64,000 bases of DNA from Fibrobacter sp. (GTDB taxonomy: Bacteria > Fibrobacterota > Chitinivibrionia > Chitinivibrionales > Chitinispirillaceae), in assembly GCA_012523595.1 (NCBI GenBank), contig JAAYIG010000199.1, positions 1 to 64,000 on the forward strand, given 5' to 3'. Positions 7,598 through 10,688 of the stretch are shown piece by piece. The notes under the pieces were generated by a model, which saw only the letters and a list, made by a program, of their open reading frames with translations, was not told where the DNA came from and made no database searches. How positions within the stretch are numbered: the first letter of the stretch is position 1; the number at the start of each line of letters is the position of its first letter. A program made the position numbers and the translations under genes.

Positions 7598-9766
7598 ATG
7601 ATGGTCAAAAAATTGCATCCCAATTATCTCTTGTCTGCTGTCTTTTTCCTCTATGTATCCGCTTTCGCTCAGAAGATGTACATGTCAGGTACGGTTAAGG
7701 AAGAATCTGGAAGCCCGGTAGCGGGAGCTGTGGTAAAACTGAAAAGTAATGAAAACATGCGAACTACTACCAATTCCGAAGGGCAATTTGTACTCAAAAG
7801 TGAGACCTCAGTTCATAAAACCCATCCGCAACCTCTTCGTTCATCCGCAGTATTTAAAGGCTCTTATGTAGATATTAATCTCGCAGCACCATCTGATGTC
7901 AGTACAGCTATTTATTCTGTGTCAGGGAAAAAACTGTTCGGTACTAATTCCGGTAAGCTTGATGCCGGATCAAAAAGAATCCATCTACCGGTAGACAAAC
8001 TAGGCTCAGGTGTTTATCTGGTAATGATCAGCTATGATGGCAACAGAAATGTATTCAGATATGTCTCAGCGAATCAGAGATATAATAATCTTGCCGATTA
8101 CAGAAATAAAAATGATGACAGGGCATCGGGTGAGCCTGTGAAAAAAACGGCTGCTCCGCAAGATGAAATTGTCGATACACTCGTGGTTACTGCAGATGGA
8201 TATATTGCAGAAAACTATCCTCTGAGCAGCCATTCCCAGCAGGATATTGAAATTACACTTAAAAAAGTGACAGTTGAGACAGGCAGTTTCACTGAAACCG
8301 TAAATGGTGTGTCTTTTGAAATGGTATACATCCCGGGAGGGACGTTTACTATAGGGTGTGAGAGCAGTCCATGCCCGGCTGATGCACAACCTGTTCCGGG
8401 TGTGAAGGTCAGCAGTTATCATATCGGGAAAAATGAGGTAACAGTTGGGCTGTGGAATGCAGTGATGAATGACGATGAGCAAAGCTGGGGTAGTCCCTCA
8501 ATTACCAGCATCACCTGGTACGATGCCATGGAATTTGCCTGCAGATTGAGCCAGTTGACAGGCAGGAAGTATCGTATGACTACCGAGGCTGAGTGGGAAT
8601 ATGCTGCGAAAAATCATTTAAGCAGTTTGGCAAATATAGGCAGCACCGAGGAGTGGGCCTACAATTCCTGGAGCAGTACGCACATGGGCGGGACCGATCC
8701 AGTAGGGCCAAGCAGTGGAGAGCACACTCAAAAAACCCGGCGCGATGCACAAGGCAGTGTAGATAATATAACAGGACGTCTCATCCGTTCAATTGATGGC
8801 ATAGGTCCGGCGCTACGTCTGGCCATCTCGGCTGAAATGGACTATCCTCCCGGCTATGTTCCTCCATGCGATCTCAACGCTCCGCAAATAGGTGATGAAC
8901 CGGTGAATTCTTATCGTGACCCGCGATGGATCACTGGAAGTGATGCGCATTGGACAACCGGGTCCATAGCGATTGGCAACTTTGATCTCAGAGTCTGGGA
9001 TGATGGTACCGCAGTGTTAAATGGAAAAAATGGTCAGTGGTTCACTTCTAACAATATCGTCTTTGTGTTTGTACCATCCTCAGGTTCCAGCGTAACATAT
9101 CCGTATATCTTCCTTGACACAACGCAAGGCTCGCTTCTTTCCAGCCAGAGTTTCATGTCCGGAGGTTATATCGGGAGGATAGCGAAGAAAGCGGCTGCCA
9201 GCTACACCAAGCCGTCAGTATCCGGCCTGAAAAGCGGTGCAGAACTGGCCGCAGCAGCCGGTGAAAACTTTAAAATGATCGATATGGTCAATATCCCGGA
9301 ATCGGCCAGGAAACAGGATTCGCGGCTGCTTGACGGGACAAATCAGGGATGGTTCCAGAACAACACCCAGGCCGGTGGTCTGCATCATTACAGAAAAGAT
9401 GTGGATCCGGATGAATTCCGGTTTACAGTCAATAATAATGGAACCCGGACCATGCTCGCAAACGGCGCATGGTTCACAGTAAATAACGTGTTTCTGCGGG
9501 TGACACACTCAAGCGGTTATACAACTGATTTTCTGTACGCCATAGGTTCGGACGGCACATTCTATCATCTTTCGTTTCAGGCTTATGAGCGTGCTGATTT
9601 CAGGATGTTCAAGCTGGCCAACAATGGAAGTGAATTCGAATCTGTCTGCGGCAGTATCTGCAGCGGTGAGATCCCGAAAGGTGAGGGTGCCTCGATTTAT
9701 GCCAGGTTTGAAAATGGGCATTCGACATTTGTGCCTGCACCGTGTCCGGCTGGCGGTTGTCAGTAA
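7598..9766 (+). CDS. Surface protein: carboxypeptidase-regulatory, sorting-like and FGE-sulfatase domains
   Basis: ATG at 7598 follows GGAGGTGAT. After a signal peptide (to about residue 25, SAFAQ) come a carboxypeptidase regulatory-like beta-sandwich (GTVKEESGSPVAGAVVKL), a region like a type-A sorting module but placed internally (VSGKKLFGTN to GSGVYLVMI), and an FGE-sulfatase fold (MVYIPGGTFTIG; HIGKNEVTVGLWN; YRMTTEAEWEYAAK). The catalytic cysteine pair of true formylglycine-generating enzymes is not evident, and the usual NVWEW motif is reduced to EEWAYNSW, so a non-catalytic, ligand-binding role is more likely. The last 250 residues hold two similar beta-rich repeats (FDLRVWDDGTAVLNGKNGQW and FRFTVNNNGTRTMLANGAW). 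Proteins of this style are characteristic of Fibrobacter-like genomes. Function unknown. Confidence 0.7.
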   Translation: MMVKKLHPNYLLSAVFFLYVSAFAQKMYMSGTVKEESGSPVAGAVVKLKSNENMRTTTNSEGQFVLKSETSVHKTHPQPLRSSAVFKGSYVDINLAAPSDVSTAIYSVSGKKLFGTNSGKLDAGSKRIHLPVDKLGSGVYLVMISYDGNRNVFRYVSANQRYNNLADYRNKNDDRASGEPVKKTAAPQDEIVDTLVVTADGYIAENYPLSSHSQQDIEITLKKVTVETGSFTETVNGVSFEMVYIPGGTFTIGCESSPCPADAQPVPGVKVSSYHIGKNEVTVGLWNAVMNDDEQSWGSPSITSITWYDAMEFACRLSQLTGRKYRMTTEAEWEYAAKNHLSSLANIGSTEEWAYNSWSSTHMGGTDPVGPSSGEHTQKTRRDAQGSVDNITGRLIRSIDGIGPALRLAISAEMDYPPGYVPPCDLNAPQIGDEPVNSYRDPRWITGSDAHWTTGSIAIGNFDLRVWDDGTAVLNGKNGQWFTSNNIVFVFVPSSGSSVTYPYIFLDTTQGSLLSSQSFMSGGYIGRIAKKAAASYTKPSVSGLKSGAELAAAAGENFKMIDMVNIPESARKQDSRLLDGTNQGWFQNNTQAGGLHHYRKDVDPDEFRFTVNNNGTRTMLANGAWFTVNNVFLRVTHSSGYTTDFLYAIGSDGTFYHLSFQAYERADFRMFKLANNGSEFESVCGSICSGEIPKGEGASIYARFENGHSTFVPAPCPAGGCQ

Positions 9767-9788: not shown

Positions 9789-9827
9789 AAAGCCCCTTAA
9801 AAAGTTCTCATTTTAAGGGGCTTTACA
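9789..9827 (+). terminator. Hairpin terminator after the FGE-like gene
   Basis: A perfect 14-base stem, AAAGCCCCTTAAAA (9789-9802) with its complement at 9811-9824, and an 8-base loop. The T-tail is short (CTTTACA), so the hairpin may mainly protect the 3' end. Confidence 0.7.
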
Positions 9828-10023
9828 ATGCCTGAATATGAACTGGCGTTGTTAGAAGCTTAAATGGGGGCGCATTATTCCTCTCTACCTGTATTGAATA
9901 ACCCTTAATAGAACAGTAGTAACGCCTATAAAGAAAAGATTAGCCATACTCAAAAAAGACAGATGTGTTTGAGATAAAAGATTTCTGTTAGCTAAGGATC
10001 AATTGAAGAATTATTTTTTTTAC

Positions 10024-10161
10024 AGGTGATGGGGTTCCACCTTTAACCGCCTGCCAATAGGCTGATGACTCCTGCTATGTGCCACGTAGGAGTATTCGAA
10101 GCCCTCAATTTAAACCTCTTCGGTATACTCCTGTAAACCTCTTCAAATAAACTCAAGGAGT
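10024..10161 (+). promoter_or_regulatory. Fluoride riboswitch (crcB motif) with translational expression platform
   Basis: The aptamer runs from about 10024 to 10076 and shows the conserved crcB-motif blocks GGTGATGGGGTTCCACC, AACCGCC and GGCTGATGACTCCT, in order and with normal spacing. Downstream are mutually complementary segments: B (ACTCCTGC, 10068-10075) can pair either with GGGGT (10031-10035) inside the aptamer or with C (GTAGGAGT, 10086-10093); C (AGGAGTAT, 10088-10095) can instead pair with D (ATACTCCT, 10125-10132); D can pair with the Shine-Dalgarno AGGAGT (10156-10161). Fluoride binding should free the ribosome site and turn crcB on. The aptamer match is strong; the switching scheme is inferred from complementarity. 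Confidence 0.92.
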
Positions 10162-10165
10162 TTTA

Positions 10166-10552
10166 ATGAGATCATTTATGCCGTTTCTTTTAGTGGGGAC
10201 AGGCGGATTTATTGGTTCAATACTGCGCTATTTTATGACCGTTCTTTTTCAGAATTTCCATAGCCTCCCTTTTGGTACTCTGATTTCAAATTTCGCAGGC
10301 TGTTTCTTTATAGGGATTATAACGGGGCTGTCTGTCGATATTCCGCTTCTTTCAAGTGAAGCAAGGCTTTTACTTGCAACAGGTGTATGCGGGGGATTTA
10401 CTACGTTATCTTCCTTTATATTCGAAATAGGACAATATATCCAAGAAGGAGAATACCTGACAGGGTCTTTTTATATGATGGGGACGCTGTCAGGTGCTGC
10501 ATTGGCGTTTTTCTGGGGAATGATGCTGATCAGACTTTTTCTAAAGTGGTAA
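10166..10552 (+). CDS. crcB: Fluoride ion channel/exporter CrcB (Fluc)
   Basis: A 128-residue, four-helix membrane protein of the Fluc family, which works as an antiparallel dimer and lets fluoride leave the cell. Recognisable blocks are GTGGFIGSILRY at the N-terminus, GTLISNFAGCFFIG in helix 2 and GVCGGFTTLSSF in helix 3, the last corresponding to the family's GG-TTFSTF pore motif with Leu for Phe and Ser for Thr. The length is typical. The start ATG lies five bases after AGGAGT. A fluoride riboswitch directly upstream supports both the assignment and fluoride-induced expression. It is monocistronic: a terminator and convergent tRNA genes follow. Confidence 0.95.
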   Translation: MRSFMPFLLVGTGGFIGSILRYFMTVLFQNFHSLPFGTLISNFAGCFFIGIITGLSVDIPLLSSEARLLLATGVCGGFTTLSSFIFEIGQYIQEGEYLTGSFYMMGTLSGAALAFFWGMMLIRLFLKW

Positions 10553-10640
10553 ACTGTAAGGTGAATCCAAACACAGTCAACATTATGTTGTGGTCTATTA
10601 TAGTAATTGGGAGAGATTGAAAATTGAGAGAAAAAACAAA

Positions 10641-10683
10641 AAACCCCTCAAATCTGCTTAATTTCGCTGATTTTAAGGGGTTT
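10641..10683. terminator. Terminator between crcB and the tRNA-Glu gene
   Basis: AAACCCCT (10641-10648) pairs with AGGGGTTT (10676-10683), with further pairing inside (AAATC with GATTT). It sits between two convergent units and could serve both, since A-runs precede the stem on the plus strand and give a T-run on the minus strand. Confidence 0.6.
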
Positions 10684-10688
10684 AAGAT

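Follow-up and report, generated by a model that had tools for sequence, protein, structure and literature searches.

A fluoride riboswitch ahead of crcB in a Fibrobacterota genome with a candidate four-segment relay platform, and similar arrangements after other fluoride aptamers

According to the portions of two published accounts drawn on here, the transcriptional fluoride riboswitch, as in the crcB riboswitches of Bacillus cereus and Thermotoga petrophila, works by direct strand exchange, the 3′ strand of the pseudoknot leaving the aptamer for a single terminator hairpin (PMC13273304, PMC11077080), and the published covariation models of the class comprise the aptamer plus one hairpin (PMC13273304). 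The same portion of PMC13273304 cites the fluoride riboswitches of Pseudomonas syringae and Burkholderia pseudomallei as translational controls; these likewise place translation under a fluoride aptamer, and no relay is mentioned for them there. Terminators carrying the ribosome-binding site in their 3′ arm have been described as a dual expression platform (Barrick and Breaker 2007, PMC2258182). Translational fluoride riboswitches are already known, and a search of the main texts in a collection of open-access papers found neither a relay nor an antiterminator platform described for a fluoride riboswitch, which is weak evidence. A four-segment attenuator is familiar from the trp leader, in which the segments pair either as 1:2 plus 3:4 or as 2:3, like the relay proposed here; the trigger is a ribosome there and an aptamer-held segment 1 here, and the likeness is one of analogy rather than family relation.

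The window analysed here, a stretch of 64,000 nucleotides from a Fibrobacter sp. assembly (GCA_012523595.1, contig JAAYIG010000199.1), carries, as judged from its sequence, a genuine fluoride riboswitch in the leader of the fluoride-export gene crcB. A sequence-only reading of this stretch had matched the aptamer to the fluoride motif and named a covariance search as the check, which here confirmed the assignment with 61.9 bits against a gathering score of 34 (RF01734, E 9e-15, cmscan); the match is the sole one in the 4.1-Mb source genome. The hallmarks of the class are present, namely P1, P3, the GGNGU/ACUCC pseudoknot and the conserved GAUGG, AACCGCC and CUGAUGACUCC blocks, and we infer that the aptamer binds fluoride. 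It precedes the fluoride-resistance gene by 84 nt, with the crcB start placed by a by-eye alignment with the closest relative, L007 (Table 1).

Table 1. Features of the crcB leader in the window
Feature	Positions	Strand	Basis or remark
Fluoride riboswitch aptamer (crcB motif, RF01734)	10016-10081	+	cmscan
Aptamer P1	10025-10028/10038-10041	+	Read from sequence and covariance alignment
Aptamer P3	10049-10052/10059-10062	+	Read from sequence and covariance alignment
Aptamer pseudoknot	GGGGU 10031-10035 (L1) with ACUCC 10068-10072	+	Sequence and alignment; one G-U
Segment B (ACUCCUGC)	10068-10075	+	3′ strand of pseudoknot; alternative partner of C
Segment C (GUAGGAGUAU)	10086-10095	+	Pairs B or D; registers GUAGGAGU 10086-10093 and AGGAGUAU 10088-10095
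Inner C:D stem and its loop, UUCGAAG/CUUCGG	10096-10126	+	Folding energies
Segment D (AUACUCCUGU)	10125-10134	+	Anti-SD word; core AUACUCCU 10125-10132; pairs C or SD
Direct repeat TAAACCTCTTC, 11 nt, period 23	10111-10121, 10134-10144	+	Read from sequence
Local SD hairpin AAACUC-AAG-GAGUUU	10149-10163	+	-2.6 kcal/mol
Segment E, Shine-Dalgarno (SD) AGGAGU	10156-10161	+	4 bases upstream of start AUG 10166
crcB (fluoride channel, 128 aa)	10166-10552	+	Pfam PF02537, 88.1 bits

Palindromic terminator-like hairpins lie at both sides of crcB (9789-9824 and about 10640-10685), suggesting a single-gene transcription unit. Further on come tRNA genes, two of them minus-strand and one plus-strand, followed by thrS and infC. 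Positions 7598-9766 encode a secreted-type protein of 722 aa, which carries a sulfatase-modifying-factor domain (PF03781) and matches the PF18962 secretion tail weakly, below the cut-off. The closest CrcB relatives, at 65-66% identity, come from two metagenome-assembled genomes also named Fibrobacter sp.; no aptamer was found in the leaders of the close relatives L007-L010, and no leader homologous to that of the window was found among close relatives of its crcB. Across 168 Fibrobacterota genomes, three had an RF01734 match above cut-off, several further matches falling below it. The other two strong riboswitches of the phylum, L002 (genome G025) and L003 (genome G010), stand upstream of antiporter-like genes, so that, with aptamers lacking before the close crcB orthologues, the crcB linkage in this genome is isolated in its group. 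Neither the L002 nor the L003 leader contains a relay, and L002 has a direct match between B and the SD. Since no orthologous leader was available for a direct test of conservation, fluoride aptamers were compared more widely.

Segments B, C, D and the SD are found where the sequence-only reading had placed them, and its helices hold: B:C has 8 bp with one G-U, C:D has 8 perfect bp (10 when two G-U pairs are included), and D:SD has 6 bp closing a loop of 23 nt. Several features had gone unmentioned there. B is also directly complementary to the SD over a perfect 6 bp (ACUCCU/AGGAGU), C:D together with its inner stem amounts to 15 pairs, and the local hairpin covers half of the SD. In addition, CGGUAU at 10121-10126, the 5′ neighbour of D, can pair with AUGCCG at 10178-10183 in the coding region. 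D is located between the two copies of TAAACCTCTTC and the local anti-SD AACTC follows the second copy; this AACTC may be a sister of D, which suggests that D originated by a small tandem duplication.

The reading that we prefer, with a probability of roughly 0.55, is that the window leader is a fluoride-ON crcB riboswitch with a four-segment relay platform. Fluoride would fix B in the aptamer pseudoknot, leaving C to pair with D and the SD accessible; without fluoride the pseudoknot would open, B would pair with C, and the freed D would pair with the SD and lower crcB translation. The relay would extend the usual platform, where the SD or a terminator arm is paired directly by B, in a modular way, with a B:C hairpin placed ahead of an ordinary anti-SD:SD (D:E) hairpin. 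On this reading the window shares with the B. cereus and T. petrophila crcB riboswitches the aptamer class, the exchange of the pseudoknot 3′ strand and the ON logic; B enters the terminator hairpin directly in those systems, whereas C and D stand in between here and no U-rich terminator is called (PMC11077080, PMC13273304).

The definition of a relay used here asks for three helices, B:C, C:D and D:E, that share at least 4 nt and exceed in strength those of shuffled spacers. With B and the SD held fixed, dinucleotide-preserving shuffles of the spacer between them gave a relay with an equally strong weakest helix at p=0.003 (0.007 in a coarser rerun), so that the window falls within this definition, and an exact AGGAGU followed by ACUCCU appeared in 2 of 20,000 spacer shuffles. 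The inner C:D stem was also considered as independent evidence and dropped: loop shuffles equalled the C:D stability of -15.9 kcal/mol in 181 of 2000 cases (9%), and the stem alone is thus not significant.

The predicted energies of the window RNA are less decided. C:D is the strongest local hairpin, exceeding B:C (-10.0 kcal/mol) by 5.9 kcal/mol, and D:SD reaches -6.2 kcal/mol. With fluoride modelled as bound, C:D has a probability of 1.00 and D:SD of 0.00 at all transcript ends tried. In the fluoride-free model B:C varies from 0.07 to 1.00 with the amount of RNA included, D:SD stays at 0-0.20, and the equilibrium fold is not B:C plus D:E. We also forced four states, B:C with D:SD (I), B:C with the local hairpin (I′), C:D with B:SD (II) and C:D with the local hairpin (III), and they fell within about 2-3 kcal/mol of each other at 37 C under Turner 2004 or Andronescu 2007 parameters, with a wider spread at 25 C. 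In these models D:SD is predicted to be weak and to lose out to C:D and the local hairpin, and the modelled thermodynamics of the window permit the relay without predicting it. The sequence-only reading is partly supported. Its claim that fluoride lets C take D agrees with the bound model, while the local hairpin is predicted to hide part of the SD in both states; its claim that B takes C and D blocks the SD without fluoride agrees with the fluoride-free folds of most relatives (below), but in the window the energies do not support this last step, given the low D:SD probability and the greater stability of C:D over B:C.

These energies bear on a simpler possibility, namely that C:D is a constitutive, distance-shortening hairpin and that B itself pairs with the SD without fluoride, fluoride removing B and permitting translation. 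Besides the perfect B:SD match and the excess strength of C:D, such direct sequestration draws on the minimum-energy fold of 10065-10190, which is C:D plus B:SD (probability up to 0.85, only in the shortest 3′-part fold, at one transcript end), on the closeness of that combination to the relay state (within about 2-3 kcal/mol), and on the published mechanism, direct strand exchange into one hairpin, with L002 as a nearby example of a B:SD match. Nevertheless, at most transcript lengths state II comes out as less stable than its competitors, C contains an exact copy of the SD word for which a passive spacer hairpin has no use, and in relay-type relatives the C:D and D:E flanks covary and the B:E flanks do not (below). 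We consider this explanation rather unlikely, although a real contender. Both routes predict the same output, fluoride-ON crcB translation, for which the relay is the likely one; the folding order, and that the window SD is hidden by D and neither by B nor by the local hairpin, we infer.

A second alternative is that the aptamer is real and switching is weak or lacking, with the local SD hairpin fixing the level of translation, or with control exerted through RNA stability or Rho access. It would account for the predicted cost of opening the SD, which is practically the same with B blocked as with B free (4.0 vs 4.1 kcal/mol), and for the local hairpin being predicted in both states. On the other hand, that hairpin is worth merely -2.6 kcal/mol, the words are very improbable by chance, and crcB is the canonical fluoride-export target, so that we regard weak switching as improbable.

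To place the window among its class, 204 distinct fluoride aptamers, mostly from Desulfobacterota, were surveyed in leaders from Desulfobacterota and Bacteroidota; they were picked by a motif filter, and some divergent aptamers were missed. Room for a relay, taken as an SD or U-run 45-130 nt past B, existed in 84 of the 204, and 20 of these 84, the window included, had a relay at p<=0.01 where 0.84 were expected (12 of 61 in an earlier, smaller scan). Some single matches, at L091 and L146, have on inspection the look of chance or of simple terminators. By sequence comparison the four-word relay of the window is one that recurs after other fluoride riboswitches. Among relay candidates, blocking B, as fluoride would, made opening of the SD or U-run cheaper in 22 of 24, by a mean of 4.1 kcal/mol, and in most relay relatives the fluoride-free fold is B:C plus D:E with probability near 1. 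The modelled energies thus support fluoride-ON logic in most relatives, not in the window. The bound-state equilibrium folds of many relatives still prefer D:E, and C:D would therefore need co-transcriptional trapping.

Many relay relatives have AGGAGUUUUUUUAUG, with an SD inside a terminator-like hairpin; in many of them the SD lies in a D:E hairpin with U5-U8 and the AUG behind it, and several resemble the dual terminator/RBS platform in carrying SD, U-run and AUG in the D:E 3′ arm (PMC2258182). D:SD in the window might likewise act as an intrinsic terminator, instead of or besides hiding the SD, and RBS-in-3′-arm terminators offer a precedent. The window differs, however: just four U follow, the D:SD helix is weak and has a 23-nt loop, and no terminator-like site was called on the plus strand between 9500 and 11500; such a role appears very improbable.

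Covariation of the sequences flanking the words provides a further line of evidence. Own-versus-foreign pairing on relays selected by their helices gave very low p values and was set aside, since helix-based selection biases the test, and a bare-word set was used instead: SD-type leaders with 65-120 nt from B to AUG and a GGRG word followed by a CUCC word (17 of 43), the words chosen by a fixed rule blind to the flanks and each flank paired with its own or with other RNAs' partners. In these 17 leaders the outer flanks of C:D paired with their own partner at 3.41 of 5 positions vs 2.54 with foreign ones (p=5e-5), D:E flanks also did better with their own partner (p=0.03 and 0.01), and B:C flanks showed a weak preference (p=0.07). 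Direct B:E flanks had no own-partner preference (p=0.18). The comparison of sequences favours the relay for the class. As for the sequence-only reading, its four alternating segments with ON logic gain from this recurrence and from the C:D and D:E covariation, and are left unaided by the unchanged SD-opening cost in the window; its terms "complete" and "translational" are likely apt, tempered by the window energies and by the nearness of the direct B:SD route.

Most relay forms in Desulfobacterota lie upstream of a dynamin-family GTPase (Dynamin_N, E 8e-23 at L262), so that they largely represent a single cassette passed on by descent and not a series of separate gains. A P-loop motif lies within 900 nt downstream of 68 of the 204 aptamers. 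Dynamin-linked loci include L124, L150, L157, L206, L210, L258, L259, L262, L275, L290, L300, L305, L306 and L322, and many dynamin-linked loci have the one-hairpin form (e.g. L042, L043, L274 and L289). At p<=0.01, relays were found in 11 of 31 dynamin-linked riboswitches, a gene-selected group, and in 9 of 53 not linked to this GTPase, among them the window crcB and L056, a case from the Na/H-exchanger family. The dynamin-linked group holds 34 one-hairpin platforms, and the D-to-AUG part of its relays is 72-92% identical to whole B-to-AUG one-hairpin platforms from homologous leaders, in all cases above shuffles, which suggests that D:E is the old platform and the B:C hairpin the addition. 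Judged from these alignments, the relay looks to have been built by insertion of a B:C hairpin before an ordinary anti-SD:SD switch. The D-to-AUG part of the window matches these platforms weakly (62%), and common descent with them is thus not implied. No paper linking dynamin to a fluoride riboswitch was found among the main texts of the open-access collection, which is again weak evidence.

It is about an even bet that relays have been gained repeatedly by a hairpin placed after the aptamer and ahead of the original one, with the window as an independent translational instance, and with a large Desulfobacterota set using the relay, overlapping an SD-in-terminator element, for fluoride control of a dynamin-family GTPase. 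If this is true, adding an even number of segments keeps the ON sign. The occurrence of both one- and two-hairpin forms among homologous leaders of a single gene provides a natural series on the sign-preserving gain of a relay, which would address the effect of the extra step on kinetics, dynamic range and leakiness. The dynamin-GTPase association, if true, would bring a possible membrane-linked response into the fluoride regulon.
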